A DNA stretch of 36,065 bases from an uncultured Chloroflexota bacterium (lineage in GTDB: Bacteria; Chloroflexota; Chloroflexia; Chloroflexales; Chloroflexaceae): contig CAKZKA010000216.1 in assembly GCA_937120965.1 (NCBI GenBank), forward strand, positions 1-36,065, given 5' to 3'. The notes below the pieces were generated by a model that was not told where the DNA came from, did not search any database, and worked only from the letters and a program-made list of their open reading frames with translations. Shown one piece after another: positions 3,864 to 36,065 of the stretch (its first letter is position 1; each line of letters opens with the position of its first letter). The position numbers and the translations under genes are program-made.

Positions 3864-4320
3864 GGTGAACATATGGCGAAACTGGGTTTCCCCGTGCCCC
3901 CTGCCGGTGGGGCGCCAGCCGCTCCCACCAGCGGTTGGGCCATGGGGAAACCGGGTTTCCCCACCTGCGGTGAGCCTGTCGAACCGCACCCCTGCCGGTG
4001 GGGCGCCAGCCGCCCGCAACCGCGGTTGGGACACGGGGAAACCGGGTTTCCCCGTGCCCCTGCCCACGGGGAGGGTGTGGGCGGCGTAGCCCGCCCACGT
4101 TGCGCTCGAGGGGGCGCGGGGAAACCGGGTTTCCCCGTGCCCCTGCCGGTGGGGCGCCAGCCGCTCCCAACGGCGGTTGGGCCATGGGGAAACCGGGTTT
4201 CCCCGTGCCCCCTGCCGGTGGGGCGCCAGCCGCTCCCAACGGCGGTTGGGCCATGGGGAAACCGGGTTTCCCCGTGCCCCTGCCCACGGGGAGGGTGTGG
4301 GCGGGCGCAGCCCTGCCACA
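3864..4320. repeat. Cluster of six palindromic repeat units
   Basis: Six palindromes of the GGGGAAACCGGGTTTCCCC type lie at 3875-3893 (degenerate), 3944-3962, 4035-4053, 4118-4136, 4186-4204 and 4255-4273. The intervals are 69, 91, 83, 68 and 69 bp. The spacers are themselves repetitive: GCCGGTGGGGCGCCAGCCGC with CCCAACGGCGGTTGGG, TGCCCACGGGGAGGGTGTGG, or GGTGAGCCTGTCGAACCGC. The cluster fills the divergent interval between the leftward TPP enzyme gene and rightward gatB. It shows no coding signature. Confidence 0.9.
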
Positions 4321-7047: not shown

Positions 7048-7053
7048 GGTCGG

Positions 7054-7233
7054 GCCGAAGCATGCGCCGCGGGCCAGCGCCGGGGCAATACGCCAGCACG
7101 TGGCGCGTGCTTCGGCCTACCATCGCCCCGAGCCGACAGCGCGCCCGGGTGACGAGGCGACCGATGCGGGGCCGAAGCATGCGCCGCGGGCCAGCGCCGG
7201 GGCAACATGCCAGCGCGTGGCGCATGCTTCGGC
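7054..7233. repeat. Two direct copies of a 63-bp hairpin
   Basis: Two near-identical 63-bp units, 7054-7116 and 7171-7233, each start GCCGAAGCATGCGCC and end with its inverse GGCGCATGCTTCGGC (one mismatch in the first copy), so each folds into a long hairpin. The loop (GCGGGCCAGCGCCGGGGCAA) is also conserved. There is no T-tract, so a standard intrinsic terminator is unlikely. The pair fills the gap between the HEPN/SH3 gene and the tRNA. Confidence 0.85.
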
Positions 7234-7262
7234 CCACCATCGGACGTGGGTGACGAACAGAC

Positions 7263-7348
7263 GCCGGAGTGGCGAAATGGCAAACGCTGCGGTCTTAAAA
7301 ACCGCTGGGGGCAACCCCTTACGGGTTCGAGTCCCGTCTCCGGCACCA
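7263..7348 (+). tRNA. tRNA-Leu (anticodon UAA)
   Basis: The acceptor stem GCCGGAG (7263-7269) pairs with CTCCGGC (7338-7344), followed by discriminator A and an encoded CCA (7346-7348). The anticodon stem GCGGT/ACCGC encloses the loop CTTAAAA, giving anticodon TAA. A long variable arm (TGGGGGCAACCCCTTA) marks it as a class II tRNA, and the T-arm GGGTTCGAGTCCC is canonical. It lies at the left edge of the accessory segment. Confidence 0.95.
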
Positions 7349-18319: not shown

Positions 18320-19444
18320 ATGCACCTCTACACTCGTCCCTGGTTCCTCGCCGCTCTGCTTGTCCTCCTGATCTCCTGCGGCGCCCCATCATCGCCTGCG
18401 TCGAACCAAACGACCGCGCCTGCGGCGCAAGGGGCAGAAGCGCCAGCAGTCTCGCCCTTTTCCACAGCCACAGCGATATCTAAGCCAACAGCGACGCCTG
18501 AGGCAGTCGAGCCGGGCGCCAGCCGGAGCGCTCCTTTACCCCTGGGTACCGAGCTGCGTTTTACGAACTGGGCCGTGATGATCAGCGCTGTCGTTCGGGG
18601 TGACGAGGCAGCCCGGGCTATTGCTAACGCCAACCAGTTCAACGACCCTGCTCCTCCGGGCTGGCAGTACCTCCTGGCAACACTGAAGCTGACTAATATC
18701 TCGACTGAACAGACGGCCAGGAGCGCACTGTTGGGTGTAGACGTGCGCGTCACTGGCCAGCGCAGCCTCCTCTACGACCGGGCCAGTGTGGTACCTCCGC
18801 GGCAGTTAGAGGGAGAGCTGTTTCCGGGGGGCTCCGTCGAGGGCCAGATCGCCTTCCTCGTACCCGTCGACGAGGGCAATCTGATGTTCTATGTGGCCGA
18901 GTTTCTCTCCTTCGATCGTAACGGGCGACGGTTCGTCGCTATTGATGAAGGCGCTGTTGTCCGTCCCGATTCGGTCCTGGCGACGCTGACACCAACCGAC
19001 ACGGGTGCCAGTCGTGCCAATCCTGCGCCTCTGGGTGTCACGACGATCAGCGAGAATTGGGAGATCACCGTGCTTGAGGCGCTGCGTGGCATCGAGGCTG
19101 CCAGGCGGGTTGCTGAGGCCAACATGTTCAATGAACCGGCGCCGGAAGGGGAGGAATACCTGCTCGCCCGTGTGCGCGCTCGCTATCTGGGCCGCGATGA
19201 CCCCGACGTAATGGCACAGATCAGCCAGAGTGATTTCAGAGCCACCGGGGCTGCCAACGTTGTGTACGAACGACCGCTGGTAGTTGCCCCTGAGCCCCGA
19301 TTGGACGCTTACCTGTTCCCCGGTGGTCAGGTAGAGGGATGGTTGGTGGTGCAGGTACCAGCGGATGAGACCGGGTTGACCCTGGTCTTCCAGCCTGGTT
19401 TCGCCCTTAGCGATAAGAACGTGCGGTTCTTTGCGCTTGAGTAG
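18320..19444 (+). CDS. Lipoprotein with two DUF4352-like domains
   Basis: The 374-residue protein has a signal helix and lipobox (LLVLLISCGAPS, lipidated Cys20), a low-complexity Ala/Thr/Pro linker (25-70), then two homologous beta-sandwich domains of the DUF4352 (telomeric-repeat-factor-like) type. Domain 1 has NWAVMISAVVRGDEAARAIA with NQFNDPAPPGWQYLLATLKL; domain 2 repeats it as NWEITVLEALRGIEAARRVA with NMFNEPAPEGEEYLLARVRA. Each ends with a LFPGGxVEGxxxxxVP block. Such domains are usually extracytoplasmic, with unknown ligands. ATG 18320 is chosen because it directly begins the signal peptide and follows GAAAGG. The in-frame extension to 18236 is hydrophilic and unlikely. Confidence 0.82.
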   Translation: MHLYTRPWFLAALLVLLISCGAPSSPASNQTTAPAAQGAEAPAVSPFSTATAISKPTATPEAVEPGASRSAPLPLGTELRFTNWAVMISAVVRGDEAARAIANANQFNDPAPPGWQYLLATLKLTNISTEQTARSALLGVDVRVTGQRSLLYDRASVVPPRQLEGELFPGGSVEGQIAFLVPVDEGNLMFYVAEFLSFDRNGRRFVAIDEGAVVRPDSVLATLTPTDTGASRANPAPLGVTTISENWEITVLEALRGIEAARRVAEANMFNEPAPEGEEYLLARVRARYLGRDDPDVMAQISQSDFRATGAANVVYERPLVVAPEPRLDAYLFPGGQVEGWLVVQVPADETGLTLVFQPGFALSDKNVRFFALE

Positions 19445-19562
19445 CCCCCAACCAGTCAGTTGATGGGCGCCTCTGCGGGTGGGATAATGATCTGTGCCTG
19501 CATCCGAGGCGGAAATAGGCGAAACCGGGTTGTCCTGACCTCCCTGCTCGCCGGGGTGGCAA

Positions 19563-19670
19563 GACCTCCTCACAGGGAAGGGTATGGGGAAACCCGGTTT
19601 CCCCATACCCCAACCGCTGTTGGGAGTGCCTGGCAGCCCAACAGACAGGGGCGTGGGGCGCCCCGGTTCC
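19563..19670. repeat. Isolated palindromic repeat unit
   Basis: The palindrome GGGGAAACCCGGTTTCCCC (19586-19604) carries one centre change relative to the main form. It is flanked on the right by ATACCCCAACCGCTGTTGGG and a CTGGCAGCCCAACAGACAGG segment, corresponding to the CCAGCCGCTCCC spacer of other units. Confidence 0.75.
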
Positions 19671-19986
19671 CCTGCGTTTATCAGTGTTCGCAGACCGGGC
19701 GCACGTGGTTTACCACAGAGAACGGAGGAAACGAGGTTATCCCCCACTACGGCCCGCCGGGTTGGCGGGCATGCCGGTCTTCCCGATCTGCGAGCTGTGC
19801 AGGAGGACCAGGGAAACGAGAACGCGTAAGGCCAGTCCAGGCTACTCCCCGGGGCCAGCAGAGCGAACGAGGCGCCCGGGGAACGACGGGCGCCGCGCGC
19901 TAGCTGCGCCGACACCGCGGGACGCTCCCGGTCTTGATCTCCTTACGGAGCGTGACGAGAACATTACGCTATTCAGACTTCTTTTC

Positions 19987-19995
19987 TGCTATACT
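19987..19995 (+). promoter_or_regulatory. Putative extended -10 promoter for baeRF gene
   Basis: TGC-TATACT is identical to the element before the thioredoxin-TPR gene (34972-34980). There is no good -35 at 17 bp. It would give a leader of about 160 nt before the start at 20164. Confidence 0.4.
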
Positions 19996-20163
19996 AGTAT
20001 GACACCGTCAAGATGACGGCTCTCTGGCCGCCTTGCGGAGGTGGATTGTTCACACACCTCTCTGTCTCCCGGGGGCCGCACGGCGAGCACTGACCCCTTC
20101 CGGGTCGCGCCTGGCTGTTCAGCGCTGCGGCTGCAAGGCGGCGTGGAACGAAAGGAGGGCCTG

Positions 20164-21372
20164 ATGCTGGAGTATCTGACGCGCGATATGTTCCTGCGTC
20201 TCGCCGAGCCGGCGTCTGAAGGTTGCCTGTCGATCTACCTGCCAGTGGGTGAGGCCGGCGGGCGGGCCGCGGCCAATCGTCTCCGGCAGATCCTGCGTGG
20301 CTTTGAGCAGCAACTCGATGCCCAGGGTGTCGCTCCGGCGACGGTGGCCGGCCAGCTCCGCGCGGCCCGGGACCTGGTGGAGGATCTGGCCCACCGGATC
20401 AACGATCACGCGGCGTGCGCGCTGTTTGCCTGGCCCGATCGATCGGTCAGCTATCGCCTTGCCGGCCCGGTTGCGGAGCTGGTGGTGTTTGGTCAGTGGC
20501 CCCATCTCAAACCGCTGGTGCCGCTGGTCATGGAGCGCGGCACGTACTATGTGCTCAGCCTGGGCAAAGCAGGCGTGCAGCTTTTCGCCGGCAAGGGCGC
20601 CACGCTGGAGCCTCTCGATTTGCCCGGCGCTCCCTCCGGGCTTGATGAGGTGCTCCAGTACGACGAGTTCGAGCGCCAGTACCAGTTGCACCCCGGCGTG
20701 CCCGGCAAGGGCGGCGAACGCGGCCCGGTGTTCCACGGGCAAGGCGGCGCCGCGGACGAGCTGAAGTCGCAGATCCAGCGCTATTGCCAGCAGATAGACC
20801 GGGCGCTCCTGCGTGCCCTGCCCGAGGCGCGCGACCCGCTGGTGCTCTGCGGCACAGGCTACGTCCTGGCCATTTACCGTGCCGTCAGTCGCTATCCTGC
20901 AATCGCCGACGCTGCGATCGTCGGCAGCCCGGCGCGGCTATCTCCCGTCGAACTCGGGGCGCGCGCGTGGGAGATTGTGCGCCCGGACACGACGGAAGCG
21001 CGCCGTGCCGCGCGCGAACGCTACGAGGCCCTCGCGGCGCGTAACAACCACCGCGTTGCCGCGAAGCTAAGCCTTATCCTCCCCGCTGCCGCCGCCGGTC
21101 AGGTTGATACGCTCTTCGTTGCCCTCGATCGCGAGCAGTGGGGCCGATACGATCCGGTAACCGGCGAACTGCTGCTCCACGAGGCGCAACAGCCCGGCGC
21201 TGATGACCTGCTTAACCTGGCCGCGGTGCTGACTATGCAGTGCAGTGGGACGGTCTACGCGGCGCCGGCAGGTGAGGTGCCGGGTGAGGAGGGGTGTGCG
21301 GCCATCCTGCGACCGGGAGCGCCGCCAGCCGGCGCTCCTGCTCCGGCTGGCGCATCGGCAGAGTTGGCCTGA
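20164..21372 (+). CDS. baeRF-type archaeo-eukaryotic release factor homologue
   Basis: The 402-residue protein matches the bacterial archaeo-eukaryotic release factor (baeRF) families (baeRF3/7-like), which are eRF1/Pelota relatives lacking the stop-codon-reading domain and proposed to act in ribosome rescue or hibernation. Visible features: an N-terminal helical/beta region (CLSIYLPVGEAGGRAAANRL, then RQILRGFEQQL), a strand pair TYYVLSLGKAGVQLFAGKG (about 127-145), the conserved FHGQG (190-194) followed by an amphipathic helix ELKSQIQRYCQQIDRALLRA and PLVLCGTGYVLAIYRAVSRY, and a C-terminal LFVALDREQWGRYDP block. ATG 20164 has AAAGGAGG upstream, which decides the start over the open frame reaching back to 20041. 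A strong hairpin follows the stop. Confidence 0.82.
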   Translation: MLEYLTRDMFLRLAEPASEGCLSIYLPVGEAGGRAAANRLRQILRGFEQQLDAQGVAPATVAGQLRAARDLVEDLAHRINDHAACALFAWPDRSVSYRLAGPVAELVVFGQWPHLKPLVPLVMERGTYYVLSLGKAGVQLFAGKGATLEPLDLPGAPSGLDEVLQYDEFERQYQLHPGVPGKGGERGPVFHGQGGAADELKSQIQRYCQQIDRALLRALPEARDPLVLCGTGYVLAIYRAVSRYPAIADAAIVGSPARLSPVELGARAWEIVRPDTTEARRAARERYEALAARNNHRVAAKLSLILPAAAAGQVDTLFVALDREQWGRYDPVTGELLLHEAQQPGADDLLNLAAVLTMQCSGTVYAAPAGEVPGEEGCAAILRPGAPPAGAPAPAGASAELA

Positions 21373-21374
21373 TG

Positions 21375-21414
21375 GATGCGGGTGTGAACGGGCTGGCCCG
21401 TTCACACCCGCATC
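21375..21414. terminator. Bidirectional hairpin terminator
   Basis: A perfect 19-bp inverted repeat, GATGCGGGTGTGAACGGGC (21375-21393) and its complement (21396-21414), occupies the 60 bp between two convergent genes. It lacks a T-tract on either side, so it would act as a strong hairpin, not a textbook intrinsic terminator. Confidence 0.75.
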
Positions 21415-21432
21415 GTCCTTCTGCACCATACC

Positions 21433-21816
21433 TCAGTGGATTAAGTCGGGGTGATCCTCCAGCGTCCCCGCCAGATAGGCGGCAACAGCCTCATCAACAC
21501 TAACCATGGGCGTACAGATGAGTTGCAGCCCGGCCCGACGCACACGCTGGCTCATAGGCGCGCCGATACCGTTGGCGATCACCACCCCGCAATCGGCTAT
21601 CGGCGCCAGCATGGCGTCATGGTCATGGTGATGCTCGTGCGCGCTGGCTTCATCGGGGCCGTGGATATGCTGGCTGTGGCCGTGGTGCGCAGGTTTGGCT
21701 CGCACCTCCCGGGTCACCTCGCGCCCCTCCTCGATGGTTACCACCACATAGCTCCGCGCGCGCCCGAAGTGACGGCTAATCTGGGTTCCGTTGTTACTCA
21801 CCAGGGCGATCTTCAT
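21433..21816 (-). CDS. NifX/NafY-like (dinitrogenase cofactor-biosynthesis fold) protein with His-rich loop
   Basis: The 127-residue protein has the ribonuclease H-like fold of the dinitrogenase iron-molybdenum cofactor biosynthesis family (MKIALVSNNGTQISRHFGRA, YVVVTI at the start; IADCGVVIANGIGAPMSQRV, GLQLICTPMVSVDEAVAAYL at the end). Members bind Fe-S or FeMo precursors in diazotrophs, but many homologues occur outside nif clusters with unknown roles. The central loop contains ten histidines between residues 44 and 66, an obvious metal-binding insertion. ATG 21816 has GGAGG four bases upstream. No nif genes are in the window, so a general metal-cluster or metal-chaperone role is inferred. 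It converges on the baeRF gene. Confidence 0.85.
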   Translation of the reverse strand: MKIALVSNNGTQISRHFGRARSYVVVTIEEGREVTREVRAKPAHHGHSQHIHGPDEASAHEHHHDHDAMLAPIADCGVVIANGIGAPMSQRVRRAGLQLICTPMVSVDEAVAAYLAGTLEDHPDLIH

Positions 21817-21829
21817 ACGTCCTCCAGCG

Positions 21830-22190
21830 GGCTCCGGGGTATCGGAGGCCCCGATGGTCCGGGGCACGGGACACCCGGGTCCCTCTGCGCTTCCGGCGGG
21901 GTAGAGTGAGACGCGCGACTATCCCCCAACGCGCTCTCCCGGGCTGCTCCCCCTTCGGCGCCTGTGTGCCAGTAGAATCTCACCTCGTTTGATGCGCGGG
22001 AGTGGCAGGACGTTACGACGGTCATCTGTGCGGCTGCGCCGCACAACACCGGAATGAAAATAATTATTCCTGGGAGGGCTGCGCCCTCCCAAACCCTCCG
22101 CGCTGGCGGGTTGTTTCCTGGGAGGGCGTAGGGGCGCGGCGGCGCCGCGCCCCTACGCCCAAACCCTCTCGCGCGCGAGCTATTTTCACC
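21830..22190. repeat. Intergenic stretch with GC-rich hairpin repeats
   Basis: No gene is supported. 22027-22099 is an inverted copy of the composite repeat at 33991-34064: the TGTGCGGCTGCGCCGCACAA hairpin, then GGAATGAAAAT, then CTGGGAGGGCTGCGCCCTCCC. A second CTGGGAGGGCGTAGGGGCGC palindrome follows at 22109-22160. Confidence 0.75.
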
Positions 22191-26689: not shown

Positions 26690-26935
26690 TTCCTGGGAGG
26701 GCGCAGCCCTCCCAGATCCTCCCGGTGGTGAGGGAACCGGGCTCCTCCCCCGGCGGGGAGAGGCTGGAAGGGGATCAGAACGTGGCAAACCCGCCCCGCG
26801 GGGCGGGGCATGGGGAAACCCGATTTCCCCATGCCCCCAACCAGTGTTGGGGGCGCCTGGCGCCCCGCTGGGCGGGGGCATGGTTCGACAGGCCCACCGC
26901 AGGTGGAGAACCCCGGTCTCTCCCATGTTCACATC
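26690..26935. repeat. Hairpin and palindrome repeats in the meh-smtA interval
   Basis: TTCCTGGGAGGGCGCAGCCC and CTCCCAG (26691-26717) form a hairpin repeat. The palindrome unit GGGGAAACCCGATTTCCCC (26812-26830, one mismatch) is followed by CATGCCCCCAACCAGTGTTG and a GTTCGACAGGCCCACCGCAG segment, seen inverted in other units. The 560-bp interval between the divergent genes is otherwise gene-free. Confidence 0.8.
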
Positions 26936-27209: not shown

Positions 27210-28580
27210 GTGACAAGACGATCTCGTGCGAGCGCCGCAGAACATGCGGCTCCTCAGGACCTCGCTGGCGACGCTGCGCCGGTTGAGGCGCAGGCGTCCG
27301 ATCCGGAGCGGGAGCAGCTCCCAAACGGGGACGCCATACCCGCCCTGCAGCCCGATCCCCGACCACGCGAGTATGAGCGTGAGCGCCTGCCGCTGAGCGG
27401 GGTGCGGGTGATTGACGTGGGCAACTTTCTCGCCGGCCCGTATGCCGCTTCGATCCTGAGCGAGTTTGGCGCTGAAGTCCTCAAGGTTGAGCACCCGATT
27501 GCCGGCGATCCCATGCGCCGCTTCGGCACCCCCACCAAGCGTCACGACGCCAGTCTGGCCTGGTTAAGCGAGGCCCGCAACCGCAAGTCGGTGACCATCG
27601 ACCTGCGCCAGCCCGAGGGCGTGCAGCTCTTCCTGAAACTGGTTGCGCGTTCGGATGTGCTGATCGAGAACTTTCGCCCCGGAACGATGGAGGAGTGGGG
27701 CCTGGGCTGGAACCAGGTGCGGGAAGCGAACCCGCGTCTGGTGATGCTGCGCGTCTCGGGCTATGGTCAGACAGGGCCGTACCGCCGGCGTTCCGGCTTT
27801 GCCCACATCGCGCACGCCTTCGGCGGGCTTTCCTACCTGGCAGGGTTTCCCAACGAAAGCCCGGTGCTGCCGGGCAACGTGCCTCTGGGCGACTACATCG
27901 CCAGTCTCTACGGGGCCGTCGGCGTGCTGATCGCCCTGCGCCATGCCGAGCGCACCGGCGAGGGCCAGGTGATCGACATCGGGATCTACGAGGCGGTCTT
28001 CCGCCAGCTCGACGAGATCGCCGCGGCCTACGGTCTGTTCGGCAAGATCCGTGAACGCGAGGGGGCCGGCAGCTTCGTGGCGGTGCCCCACGGCCACTTC
28101 CGTACCCGTGACGATAAGTGGGTGGCCATCGCCTGTACCACCGACAAGATGTTCGAGCGTCTGGCCGAAGCGATGGGCCAGCCTGACCTGGCCTCCAGCG
28201 AGTTGTACGGCGAACAACGCAAGCGCCTGGCCGCCCGCGACAAGGTCAACAAGATCGTCATTGACTGGGTCGGCTCGCTGACCCGCGATGAGGTGATGGC
28301 CATCTGCCTGGAAAAAGAAGTGCCCATCGGCAAACTCAACAGCATTGCCGACATTTTCGAGGACGAGCACTTCCAGGCCCGCGGCAACCTGACGCGCATT
28401 AACGAGGAAGGGGTTGGTGAAGTGGTGGTGCCCGGCGTGGTGCCGACCCTCTCTGAAACTCCCGGCCGCATCACCAACCTTGGCCCGCCCCTGGGCAACG
28501 CCACCTACGAGGTGATGCGCGAGATGCTCGGCCTCACGCCCGATGATATCAAGTATCTGCGCCAGCGGAAAATCATCTAA
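27210..28580 (+). CDS. smtA: Succinyl-CoA:(S)-malate CoA-transferase subunit A
   Basis: The 456-residue class III (CaiB/BaiF) CoA-transferase forms, with SmtB, the enzyme moving CoA from succinyl-CoA to (S)-malate, giving (S)-malyl-CoA for Mcl. The family core starts at about residue 60 (LPLSGVRVIDVGNFLAGPYA), with HPIAGDPMRRFGTPTKRHDA and [20 protein letters not shown]. The catalytic Asp is probably Asp228 in VPLGDYIASLYG. The first 60 residues are an Ala/Pro/Glu-rich extension without a counterpart in SmtB, which matches SmtA being the longer subunit. GTG 27210 has GGAGG eight bases upstream. The first gene of five co-directional pathway genes, divergent from meh; spacing to smtB is 72 bp. 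Confidence 0.9.
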   Translation: MTRRSRASAAEHAAPQDLAGDAAPVEAQASDPEREQLPNGDAIPALQPDPRPREYERERLPLSGVRVIDVGNFLAGPYAASILSEFGAEVLKVEHPIAGDPMRRFGTPTKRHDASLAWLSEARNRKSVTIDLRQPEGVQLFLKLVARSDVLIENFRPGTMEEWGLGWNQVREANPRLVMLRVSGYGQTGPYRRRSGFAHIAHAFGGLSYLAGFPNESPVLPGNVPLGDYIASLYGAVGVLIALRHAERTGEGQVIDIGIYEAVFRQLDEIAAAYGLFGKIREREGAGSFVAVPHGHFRTRDDKWVAIACTTDKMFERLAEAMGQPDLASSELYGEQRKRLAARDKVNKIVIDWVGSLTRDEVMAICLEKEVPIGKLNSIADIFEDEHFQARGNLTRINEEGVGEVVVPGVVPTLSETPGRITNLGPPLGNATYEVMREMLGLTPDDIKYLRQRKII

Positions 28581-28652
28581 GAAGAGGCGCGCCCTTCCCG
28601 CGCCCGCTCCCGTGGCGGCGCAGCCACATTGACCACCAAAGAGGAGAGAGAC

Positions 28653-29876
28653 GTGACCCATCAACCCAACGAGGACAACCTGCCCCTCAAGGGCATCACT
28701 GTTATTGACGCCGCAACCGTCATCGCCGCGCCCTACTGTGCGACCATCCTCGGTGAGTTTGGGGCCGACGTGATCAAAGTGGAGCATCCCATCGGGGGTG
28801 ACGCGCTGCGGCGCTTCGGCACCCCGACGGAACGGGGCGATACGCTGACGTGGCTGAGCGAGGCGCGCAACAAGAAGTCGCTGACCCTCGACCTGCACCG
28901 CCCCGAGGGCGCAGAGATCTTCAAGCAACTCGTGGCCCGCGCCGATGTGCTCTGCGAAAACTTCCGCACCGGCACCCTCGAACGGTGGGGCCTGGGCTGG
29001 AATGTGCTCCACGAGATCAATCCCCGCCTGATCATGCTGCGCGTTACCGGCTACGGGCAGACCGGCCCCTACGCCGACCGCCCTGGCTTCGCCCGTATCG
29101 CTCATGCCGTCGGCGGCATCGCTTACCTTGCGGGTATGCCCAAGGGCACCCCGGTGACCCCCGGCTCAACCACCCTCGGCGATTATATGACCGGCATCTA
29201 CGGCTGCATCGGGGTGCTGATGGCGCTGCGCTACCGCGATCAGACCGGGTGTGGCCAGTACATTGACGCGGCGCTCTACGAGTCGATCTTCCGCTGTACT
29301 GACGAACTGGCCCCCGCCTACGGCATGTACGGCATCGTGCGCGAGCGCCACGGCCCGCATCACAACGACTTCGCCTGCCCCCACGGCCATTTTCCCACCC
29401 GCGATGGCAAGTGGGTGGCCATCTCGTGCGCTACCGACAAGCTCTTCGCCCGCCTGGCCCGGGCTATGAACCGCCCCGAACTGGCCTCCTCCAGCATCTA
29501 CGGCGAGCAGAAGGTGCGTCTGGAGCACTGCAACGATGTGAATGAGATCGTGCGCGACTGGTGCGGCTCGCTGACCCGCGAAGAGGTGCTCGAGCGCTGC
29601 TACGCCACCGGTACCCCCGCCGCGCCGCTGAACAACATCGCCGACATCTTCGGCGACCGGCAGTTCCACGCTCGCCGCAACCTGGTGGCGATGGATGTGC
29701 CGGAGACCGGCGAAACGGTGATTGTGCCCACGGTGATCCCCAAGCTCTCGGCCACACCTGGCCGGATCAAGCACCTTGGCCCGCGTCTCGGCGAGCATAC
29801 CGATGAAGTGTTGCGCGACGTGCTCGGACTCAGTAACGACGAGATCGCGTCGCTACGCGAGAAACGGGTGATCTGA
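28653..29876 (+). CDS. smtB: Succinyl-CoA:(S)-malate CoA-transferase subunit B
   Basis: The 407-residue class III CoA-transferase is clearly paralogous to Smt[41 protein letters not shown] and [12 protein letters not shown], with probable catalytic Asp177. Pairing of two such paralogues directly upstream of mct and mcl is the context expected for the heteromeric succinyl-CoA:malate transferase. The GTG at 28653 is preferred (GAGGAG, 6-bp spacing) over the in-frame TTG at 28629, which has no ribosome site. The stop overlaps the start of mct by one base (TGATG), indicating translational coupling. Confidence 0.9.
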
Positions 29877-31096
29877 TGACACAAGGACTCCTCTCCGGCC
29901 TCCGCGTCGTTGAGGGCTCGGCCTTTGTCGCCGCGCCCCTCAGCGGTATGACTCTGGCGCAGCTCGGCGCCGATGTGATCCGCTTCGATCCCATCGGCGG
30001 CGGCCTGGATTACAAACGCTGGCCCGTTACCCGCGACGGGCAGAGCCTGTTCTGGGCCGGCCTCAACAAGGGCAAGCGCTCCATCGCCGTGGATATTCGC
30101 CATCCCCTCGGCCAGGAGGTGCTCACCCGGCTGATCTGCGCCCCCGGCGATGGCGCCGGGCTGTTCATTACCAACTTTCCCGCCCGCGGCTGGCTCAGCT
30201 ACGAGGCCCTGCGCGCCCACCGCGCCGATCTGATCATGATCAACTTCCTCGGGCGGCGCGACGGCGGCTCCGAAGTGGATTACACTGTCAATCCTCAGCT
30301 TGGCCTGCCCTTCATGACCGGGCCTGAAGGGATCGCCGACCCAGTCAACCACGTCTTCCCGGCCTGGGATTTTGTCTCCGGGCACCTGATCGTCGTTGGC
30401 TTGCTCGCTGCCGAGCGCCACCGACGCCTCACCGGCGAAGGGCAACTGGTGCAACTCTCGCTCAAAGACGTAGGCCTGGCTATGCTCGGCAACTTCGGCA
30501 TGCTCGCCGAGGTGATGATTAACAACGAAGACCGCCCGCGCCAGGGGAATTACCTCTACGGCGCCTTCGGACGTGACTTCATGACCCTTGACGGCAGACG
30601 GGTGATGGTCGTGGGGTTGACCGACCTGCAGTGGCGCTGTCTGTGCAACGCCACGGGTATGGCCGGAGCCTTCGGCGAACTGGGTACCCGCCTTGGCCTT
30701 GACCTCACCCAGGAGGGCGACCGCTTCCGCGCCCGCCACGCCATTGCCCAGCTTCTCGAGCCCTGGTTTCGCGCCCGCACCTTCGACGAGGTGCGCCGCA
30801 GCTTCGAGGAGCACCGCGTGACCTGGGGGCCTTACCAGAGTGTGCGGGAGTTGATCGCCAGCGACCCCGACTGCTCGACCGCCAACCCGCTCTTCTCCAT
30901 GCTCGAGCAGCCTGGCATCGGCACCTACCTGGCGCCCGCCACCCCTCTGGACTTCAGCCAGGTGGAGCGCCTGCCGGCCCGCCCCGCGCCGCGCCTCGGC
31001 GAGCACACCGACGAGATCCTGTCCGAGTTGGGGCTGAGCGACGGCGAGATCGCCCGGCTCCACGATGAAGGCGTTGTTGCTGGACCAGCAGCCTGA
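29876..31096 (+). CDS. mct: Mesaconyl-CoA C1-C4 CoA transferase
   Basis: A 406-residue, more divergent CaiB/BaiF-family protein. In the bicycle Mct moves CoA within one molecule, from the C1 to the C4 carboxyl of mesaconate (mesaconyl-C1-CoA to mesaconyl-C4-CoA). Asp165 in [11 protein letters not shown] is at the position of the family's catalytic Asp. The usual GxGQ block is present ([17 protein letters not shown]), while the N-terminal [20 protein letters not shown] and a [11 protein letters not shown] stretch distinguish it from SmtA/B. Its position between smtB and mcl supports the assignment over a generic CoA-transferase. ATG 29876 overlaps the smtB stop. Confidence 0.9.
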
Positions 31097-31109
31097 TCGG
31101 AGGAATTCT

Positions 31110-32153
31110 ATGAAATTACCGTACAATTTCTACCGGCCCCTGGCCATCGGCGCGCCCCAACCCCTGCGCGAGATCCCCGTGCGCCCCGAGCGGATGATCC
31201 ACTTCTTTCCGCCCCATGTCGAAAAGATCCGCGCCCGGCTGCCCGAGGTCGCCCGCCAGGTGGACGTGCTCTGCGGCAACCTTGAAGACGCCATCCCTGC
31301 CGATGCCAAAGAAGCCGCCCGCGCCGGCTTCATCGAGGCCGTGCAGGCCAACGATTTTGGCGATACCGCCCTGTGGATCCGCGTCAACGCCCTCAACAGC
31401 CCCTGGTTCCTCGATGATATGACCGCGCTGATCGAGGCGGTCGGCAACCGCCTCGACGTGATTATGATCCCCAAGGTCGAAGGGCCGTGGGACATCCACT
31501 TTGTTGATCAGTACCTGGCCCTCCTTGAGGCGAAGTACGGCGTGCAGAAGCCCATCCTCATCCACGCTCTGCTCGAAACTGCCCAGGGCGTCATGAATGT
31601 CGAGTCGATCTGCGGCGCCAGCCCGCGCATGCACGGCTTGAGCCTCGGCCCCGCCGATCTCGCTGCCTCCCGCGGTATGAAGACCACTCGCGTCGGCGGC
31701 GGTCACCCCTTCTACGGCGTCCTCGCCGACCCGCAGGAGGGTAGCACCGAACGCGCCTTCTTCCAGCAGGACCTGTGGCACTACACCGTGGCGCGTATGG
31801 TGGATGCCTGTGTGTCGCACGGTATTCGCGCCTTCTACGGGCCGTTCGGCGACCTCAAGGATGAAGCCGCCTGCGAGGCCCAGTTCCGCAACGCCTTCCT
31901 GATGGGCTGCACCGGCGCCTGGACCCTCGCCCCCAACCAGATCCCTATTGCCCGGCGCGTCTTCAGCCCCGATGTGAACGAGGTGCTCTTCGCCAAACGC
32001 ATCCTCGAGGCTATGCCCGATGGCACCGGCGTGGCCATGATTGATGGCAAGATGCAGGATGATGCCACCTGGAAACAGGCTAAAGTGATCGTGGACCTGG
32101 CGCGCATGGTCGCGAAGAAAGATCCCGAACTGGCCCAGCTCTACGGTTTCTGA
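31110..32153 (+). CDS. mcl: (S)-Malyl-CoA/beta-methylmalyl-CoA/(S)-citramalyl-CoA lyase
   Basis: The 347-residue CitE-like (HpcH/HpaI family) TIM-barrel lyase is trifunctional in the bicycle. It cleaves malyl-CoA to acetyl-CoA and glyoxylate, condenses glyoxylate with propionyl-CoA to beta-methylmalyl-CoA, and cleaves citramalyl-CoA to acetyl-CoA and pyruvate. Expected motifs: [27 protein letters not shown] (Arg91), [19 protein letters not shown] with the Mg ligand Glu156, and [14 protein letters not shown] with Asp183. The length is the same as the known Chloroflexus enzyme class. ATG 31110 follows GGAGGAATTCT, 13 bp after the mct stop. The upstream in-frame codons overlap mct and are rejected. 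Confidence 0.93.
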
Positions 32154-35891: not shown

Positions 35892-36065
35892 GGTGAAAAT
35901 ACGGGGAAACCGGGTTTCCCCATCCCCCTGCCTGTGGGGGGTGCCAGCCGCTCCCACCAGCGGTTGGGAAATGGGGAAACCGGGTTTCCCCAACCCCGAG
36001 CCTGTGGGGGTGGCAGCCGCTCCCACCAGCGGTTGGAAATGGGGAAACCGGGTTTCCCCAACCCC
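35887..36065. repeat. Cluster of three palindromic repeat units (right window edge)
   Basis: CTGAGGTGAAAATAC leads into palindromes at 35903-35921, 35973-35991 and 36041-36059, with TGCCTGTGGGGGGTGCCAGC and TCCCACCAGCGGTTGG spacers. Units are about 70 bp. The cluster runs off the window. Confidence 0.9.

Follow-up and report, generated by a model that had tools for sequence, protein, structure and literature searches.

What role a stand-alone bacterial relative of eRF1/Pelota could play, and with which partners, is the question raised by the gene at positions 20164-21372 (forward strand) of the window, the whole 36 065-nt stretch of DNA analysed here, which is contig C216 of a genome of 5.18 Mb in 307 contigs (G000). 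The same-genus set consisted of this genome and of G001, G002, G003 and G004. In the best overall explanation, to which a probability of about 0.5 was given, the encoded protein is a divergent Balon paralogue acting as a non-hydrolytic A-site factor and co-induced with the RNA ligase RtcB.

The open reading frame contains 402 open codons and encodes a product of 402 aa. A Shine-Dalgarno sequence (AAAGGAGG, 20151-20158, forward strand) is located 5 nt before the ATG at 20164 and is invariant in the four same-genus genomes having the gene (4/4). The G000, G002, G003 and G004 sequences were aligned without gap from 19 nt before this ATG to 30 nt inside the gene, the extent compared. Because of this alignment and of the preceding Shine-Dalgarno sequence, the ATG at 20164 is very probably the true start. 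Upstream of it, the frame is open as far as a GTG at 20041, which would give a 443-aa product. This longer product was rejected, since the G004 frame is interrupted 21 codons upstream and the leader is altered by indels.

The first-pass annotation had described the product as a relative of eRF1/Pelota and had proposed a profile search against the baeRF families as a check. This search gave Pfam baeRF family7 (E 3e-33, residues 128-274), family3 (1e-31) and family6 (2e-27), all above the gathering scores; it is the middle (RNase H fold) domain that passes these scores for families 3, 6 and 7 (PF18845, PF18848, PF18849). The protein was also above the Pfam cutoff for families 11 and 8, and none of the baeRF families was clearly preferred. 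All 20 aligned members, window protein included, matched families 3, 6, 7, 8 and 11 at E <= 1e-3, and the description was confirmed. An AlphaFold model built from 3 sequences was unusable (pLDDT 34.5) and was discarded.

Relatedness to Balon was then assessed with single sequences and with profiles. With the window protein alone, phmmer gave E 2.3e-4 for Rv2629 Balon (8v9k) and E 0.072 for P. urativorans Balon (8rd8, deposited under the name 'Methyl-accepting chemotaxis protein'). The three deposited structures 8rd8, 8v9j and 8v9k are cryo-EM structures of Balon proteins on ribosomes (PMC10901736). Profile A10 was made from 15 sequences, i.e. the clade of the window protein and its 30-35% relatives, with the Balon-type rows omitted. 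It matched P. urativorans Balon (8rd8) with E 8.7e-33, from position 7 to 385 of the 385 profile positions and over residues 2-369 of 369, and this collinear match points, at the sequence level, to the three-domain architecture of the aeRF1 type. With a 20-sequence profile in which four Balon-type rows were included, the E value for 8rd8 was 3.8e-58. Profile A10 also matched MSMEG_1130 (E 1.7e-6) and, weakly and in the N-terminal helix region, two designed helical proteins (E 1.1e-4 and 0.016). That the window protein is a baeRF/Balon homologue is considered virtually certain.

The Balon equivalog model (NCBIfam NF052287) has a cutoff of 330 bits. The window protein scored 62.8 bits and stayed below it, whereas the product of a second gene of the genome, L002 (G000:C140:16934-18022), scored 403.5 bits and is a Balon equivalog. 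On these scores, the genome encodes a Balon equivalog and a divergent paralogue, the window protein, which suggests specialisation among Balon-type proteins. A LuxR-type response regulator gene (L082:6045-6746) is located just upstream of L002 on the same strand. According to the first-pass annotation, few members had been studied, and roles in ribosome rescue or hibernation were hypotheses. Most baeRF families are indeed described as uncharacterised, with rescue or hibernation as proposed roles (PMC6514570). Since the studied proteins closest to it are Balons, with cryo-EM structures on ribosomes, hibernation is nevertheless experimentally grounded for the superfamily, and that part of the statement needed correction; the window protein itself, however, scores below the equivalog cutoff.

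The Balon proteins (P. urativorans AOC03_06830, MSMEG_1130 and Rv2629) resemble the window protein in their similar length, in lacking GGQ and NIKS and, for P. urativorans Balon, in full-length collinearity. Identity is 18.9%. The window protein is longer before the HGxG loop, by 14 alignment columns compared with P. urativorans Balon and by 29 compared with L002, and it ends in a Pro/Ala tail whereas Balon usually ends in Arg-Tyr. Balon binds the decoding centre through its N-terminal HP motif and occupies the A site together with EF-Tu(GDP). The N-terminal stretch THRxxPxNxQDPI of Balon is not conserved in the clade of the window protein, so decoding-centre binding of the Balon type may differ or be lost there. 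Where Balon has THREHPANDQDPI, the window protein reads YLPVGEAGGRAAAN; if the HP motif lies at this point, which is a guess, the window protein would lack it. Binding of the window protein to the ribosomal A site is nonetheless considered likely.

GGQ and NIKS were absent from the translated sequence in a scripted check. An HGQG loop, located just before the helix that would follow the catalytic loop, was tentatively placed as the equivalent of the GGQ loop. At the position of its glutamine (Q193), G002 and G004, two of the five aligned close-clade members, have His. Class I release factors and catalytic rescue factors keep a catalytic Gln in the PTC loop; in this clade, no such residue is conserved. 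Because GGQ is absent and the Gln of HGQG is replaced in these two members, peptidyl-tRNA hydrolysis is unlikely.

The extended -10 promoter attributed to the gene by the first-pass annotation was found again. It reads TGCTATACT (TGC-TATACT, 19987-19995, forward strand), is invariant in the four same-genus genomes having the gene (G000, G002, G003 and G004) and would place the transcription start near 20001. No TTGACA-like -35 box was found upstream of TATACT, and a promoter scan of the window gave no site there. The DNA from 19930 to the start codon could be aligned in all four of these genomes, and conservation drops sharply farther upstream. Between 19444 and 20164, the only ORFs are of 147, 81 and 110 aa on the forward strand and 369 aa on the reverse strand, none with a Pfam match. 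Since it has its own conserved promoter, faces a convergent gene downstream and is preceded by no recognisable gene at 19444-20164, the gene is probably a single-gene transcription unit, as had been proposed.

The 5' leader (20001-20163, forward strand) has conserved ends and a variable interior in the same-genus alignment, and a possible closing helix (20027-20036 with 20133-20142) came from the inverted-repeat and folding analysis. The hypothesis that this 163-nt leader is a structured regulatory RNA was rejected as unproven. Its fold was no better than those of shuffled sequences (20020-20165, z -0.36; -79.6 kcal/mol against a shuffle mean of -78.6 with the start region included), and the shorter stretch 20005-20150 reached z -2.0, 8 of 200 shuffles folding at least as well. 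In the consensus fold, GGCUCUCU is the partner of the Shine-Dalgarno region, and two-sided changes were seen in only 1 of 43 pairs; in the G002 leader, the probability of this anti-Shine-Dalgarno pairing was 0. Accessibility of the Shine-Dalgarno sequence, calculated for G000 only, was 0.39, within the range of shuffled sequences (0.30 +/- 0.19). In the leader region, no match attained the gathering score of its Rfam family; 7 sub-threshold matches (E up to 5) were listed there.

Upstream of the -10 lies a 27-bp element, TTACGGAGCGTGACGAGAACATTACGC (19943-19969, forward strand), with two TTACG boxes 21 bp apart. It ends 20 bp before TATACT and spans about -58 to -32. It is conserved before the baeRF gene in G002, G003 and G004 and recurs before the archease-rtcB genes in G000, G002 and G003. 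A first pattern (TTACG-N16-TTACG-N21-TANNNT) was made from the baeRF promoter alone. Only two exact matches were found in the 5.18-Mb genome: the baeRF promoter itself and G000:C95:6308-6360, directly before the genes for archease (PF01951, E 5e-28) and RtcB (PF01139, E 2e-171). At one mismatch, 2 further sites were found in the genome and 2 with the reversed control; in 104 Mb of simulated DNA, there was no exact match in either direction. The baeRF and rtc elements of G000 are identical at 21 of 27 positions; of the 17 positions that the search pattern leaves free, 11 agree (binomial p 0.0018).

The archease-rtcB promoters of G002 and G003 also carry the element, its boxes differing by T-to-C and G-to-A changes. 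These two sites depart from the earlier pattern by 7 and 4 mismatches and were missed by it (reversed control, 0). The degenerate pattern TYACRGNNCGTRRCGARANNATYACRC was widened after inspection of these two sites and detects them by construction; its search therefore tests only rarity elsewhere, and the pattern made from baeRF alone is the unbiased test. When 100 genomes (493 Mb) were searched with the degenerate pattern at 0-1 mismatch, seven sites were obtained, four baeRF and three archease promoters, and nothing elsewhere; the reversed pattern gave 1 match. The element thus precedes baeRF in 4/4 same-genus genomes with the gene and archease in 3/3 same-genus genomes where archease was found. 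The alignment of the seven promoters continues through the extended -10, where the baeRF sequence faces TGGTATCAT, TGTTATCAT and TGCTACCAT of the rtc promoters, with a single 1-nt gap in G002 rtc. The distance from element to -10 is 20 nt in six of the seven sites and 19 nt in G002 rtc. Within the rtc promoters, 70% of the element columns are identical, against 35% over the whole aligned stretch. The rtc leaders of G000, G002 and G003 (L086-L088, upstream of archease) have a common hairpin, in which 6 of the 22 predicted pairs show two-sided changes (3 sequences).

Weaker sites were also recorded. Five 2-mismatch sites were found in other genomes, and one further site with 3 mismatches in G003 (C50), inside an open frame (reversed control of that scan, 1). 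For five of these six, the surrounding frame is open over at least 80 codons, the exception being L103. One of the 2-mismatch copies, L099 (G052:C489:2594-2620), is followed by TGCTATAAT at 33 nt, not 20, and was taken as chance; the gene after it is presumably tgt. No large regulon was found for the element: with up to 2 mismatches allowed, G000, G002 and G003 each had two sites.

Could the promoter similarity be a coincidence, or the common descent of a generic promoter, with no co-regulation of the genes? The promoter evidence comes from one genus and seven sites, all read from sequence, and the five 2-mismatch sites elsewhere are near the ~5 that a single simulated site per 104 Mb would predict, with one match for the reversed pattern; these points would fit such an explanation. 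It is made improbable by the absence of any 0-1-mismatch site from 104 Mb of simulated DNA, by the construction of the first pattern from baeRF alone and by the way the element stands out in both promoters. The kept distance to the -10 also argues against it, since TANNNT was found 20 nt on in none of the six weaker sites. The features expected of a regulon were present: a common promoter element, kept spacing, conservation in relatives and rarity elsewhere (one genus, 7 sites). Since the same element is present at the same spacing before archease-rtcB, a two-operon regulon of an A-site factor and an RNA ligase is probable, and the promoter sequences make co-regulation of baeRF with archease-rtcB highly likely. 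The shared element provides a concrete, testable partner for this baeRF subfamily and a cis-element for isolating the regulator. Among the matches listed in the open-licence literature, no title or abstract opening mentioned a promoter common to a baeRF or Balon gene and rtcB.

On the 3' side, the first-pass annotation had noted a strong flanking hairpin and described the gene as closed off by it. The perfect 19-bp inverted repeat is there: its arms (21375-21393 and 21396-21414) are 100% complementary, 2 nt apart, and start 2 nt after the stop codon. The RNA fold of 21370-21420 had an energy of -38.8 kcal/mol (z -7.6, matched by none of 200 shuffles). An intrinsic terminator would combine a G+C-rich hairpin with a U-run; no U-run follows this hairpin on either strand, and the terminator scan did not return it. 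'Closed off' therefore describes a position and not a demonstrated terminator. Conservation of the hairpin sequence was rejected: other hairpins occupy the same place in G002 (z -2.97) and G004 (z -3.76), and none beyond chance was found in G003 (z -0.62). A dispersed repeat was also rejected, on the counts of arm matches in the genome (only its own two arms at 0-2 mismatches, five others with 3; reversed control, 9 at up to 3). The feature resembles an exchangeable 3'-end hairpin lying between convergent genes, possibly bidirectional. Without U-tract and variable among congeners, it is the less informative flank; the informative one is the promoter with the 27-bp element that also precedes archease-rtcB, an element that the first-pass annotation had missed.

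The convergent neighbour (21433-21867, reverse strand) encodes a dinitrogenase iron-molybdenum cofactor domain protein (NifX/NifB C-terminal-like; Pfam, all NCBIfam matches below cutoff). DNA matching this gene is also present downstream of baeRF in G002, G003 and G004; in G004 (L003, about 2800-2950), a tandem CCGTACGGCCGCAGCGCGCTATGG repeat lies between the two genes. Other repeats were noted in the window. A perfect inverted repeat of 18 bp with a 1-nt loop (22124-22160) separates the cofactor-domain gene from a Na/Ca exchanger gene. Two long inverted repeats with the common arm GGCCGAAGCATGCGCCGCGGGC (7053-7246) lie just upstream of a tRNA (7263-7345). A palindrome around GGGGAAACC/GGTTTCCCC recurs at 192-294, 4028-4143, 19580-19610, 26805-26837 and 35903-36060 and looks like a short interspersed hairpin family. 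Three successive CoA-transferase family III genes followed by an HpcH/HpaI aldolase gene occupy 27210-32153.

Any match to the protein at E 1e-3 was found in 25 of 61 genomes and in 51 of 400 Chloroflexota genomes, own genome included in both counts. Close orthologues (57-83%) are present in G002, G003 and G004, of the same genus, and in G032. The window baeRF, archease, RtcB and the element are all absent from G001, which has only an L002-like gene. G004 (84% complete) has baeRF and the element, and archease was not found in it. In G032 (57% identity), one contig carries the orthologue with Hsp20 just upstream and an archease fragment 5.6 kb downstream; the element is absent, and the archease reads as truncated, with only its first part readable. 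This contig (L083, G032:C1463:1-16674) encodes on one strand a PAS protein, DJ-1/PfpI, Hsp20, baeRF, a glycosyltransferase, an aminoacyl-tRNA editing domain, a cyclopropane synthase, VIT1, an M50 protease with CBS and the archease whose second half is unreadable, a stress-like set. Across the Chloroflexota, with thresholds of E < 1e-25 for a strong baeRF match and E <= 1e-30 for RtcB, RtcB was found in 21 of the 36 genomes with a strong baeRF match versus 130 of the 364 others (Fisher p 0.011, uncorrected for relatedness). The place of RtcB was listed for 20 of these 21 genomes; both genes are on one contig in only 3 (G106, G122, G193), ~0.5 Mb apart. With the element in same-genus promoters on one side and these co-occurrence and contig counts on the other, the association of baeRF with RtcB is tight in the genus and loose in the phylum. 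PADLOC gave no match for baeRF, archease or RtcB.

In the proposed mechanism, both operons would be switched on when translation is damaged or stalled, by an activator binding the 27-bp element, which would stand in for the -35 box. The baeRF protein would enter the A site as Balon does, without hydrolysing peptidyl-tRNA, and would clear or guard it, while RtcB with archease would reseal broken rRNA or tRNA. A joint role of baeRF and RtcB in repair is a tentative proposal. A dedicated ribosome-repair module can be imagined on the same footing, as a speculation: a Balon paralogue specialised for damaged ribosomes would occupy the A site when the ribosome has been cut near its decoding centre and, with no peptide release, expose the break to the co-induced RtcB-archease, and the regulator would read RNA or ribosome damage.

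The protein might instead be a plain hibernation factor, a second Balon that would keep the A site of idle ribosomes blocked in stationary phase, the element before rtcB then marking a general stress regulon with no joint repair. The full-length profile match to Balon fits this, as do the Hsp20 gene preceding the G032 orthologue and the description of Balon as a hibernation factor present in 2-4 copies in many bacteria, with genes in varied stress operons (PMC10901736). However, the genome already has a Balon equivalog in L002 (403.5 bits), the window protein is far from the Balon family (62.8 bits), and two promoters per genome (G000, G002 and G003, up to 2 mismatches) make a narrow set for a general stress regulon; plain hibernation is possible, and is held with reserve. 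Catalytic rescue, in which the HGQG loop would hydrolyse peptidyl-tRNA on stalled ribosomes, could be argued from the inferred position of HGQG just before the helix after the catalytic loop and from PrfH-RtcB2, a known pair of release factor and ligase (PMC9223846). It is very improbable given the change of Q193 to His in G002 and G004, and most baeRF families are described as usually appearing without the catalytic Gln and as probably inactive (Burroughs and Aravind, PMC6514570). The divergent Balon paralogue co-induced with RtcB is the reading retained.

Known systems resemble this arrangement in part. RtcB is listed by Helena-Bueno et al. among the genes neighbouring Balon genes (PMC10901736). 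For baeRF families 3, 6 and 7, the neighbourhood links reported by Burroughs and Aravind (2019) are with HPF (PMC6514570), whereas the window gene is linked by a promoter element to archease-RtcB. The rtcBA operon regulated by RtcR (PMC9650030, PMC7790460, PMC9879122) likewise places an RtcB repair operon under dedicated regulation; RtcR is described as an enhancer-binding protein acting with sigma54, whereas a sigma70-type extended -10 is present here. In the RtcB2-PrfH operon, a termination-type A-site factor is paired with an RtcB ligase, as here: after colicin E3 has cut the ribosome, PrfH enters its A site and the 16S rRNA is resealed by RtcB2 (PMC9223846). PrfH, however, is encoded in one operon with RtcB2 and brings about peptide release, whereas the present factor is of the aeRF1 type without GGQ, rtcB is on another contig with only the promoter element in common, and archease is present. 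If the repair module exists, it would parallel PrfH-RtcB2 with a non-hydrolytic factor of the aeRF1 type.
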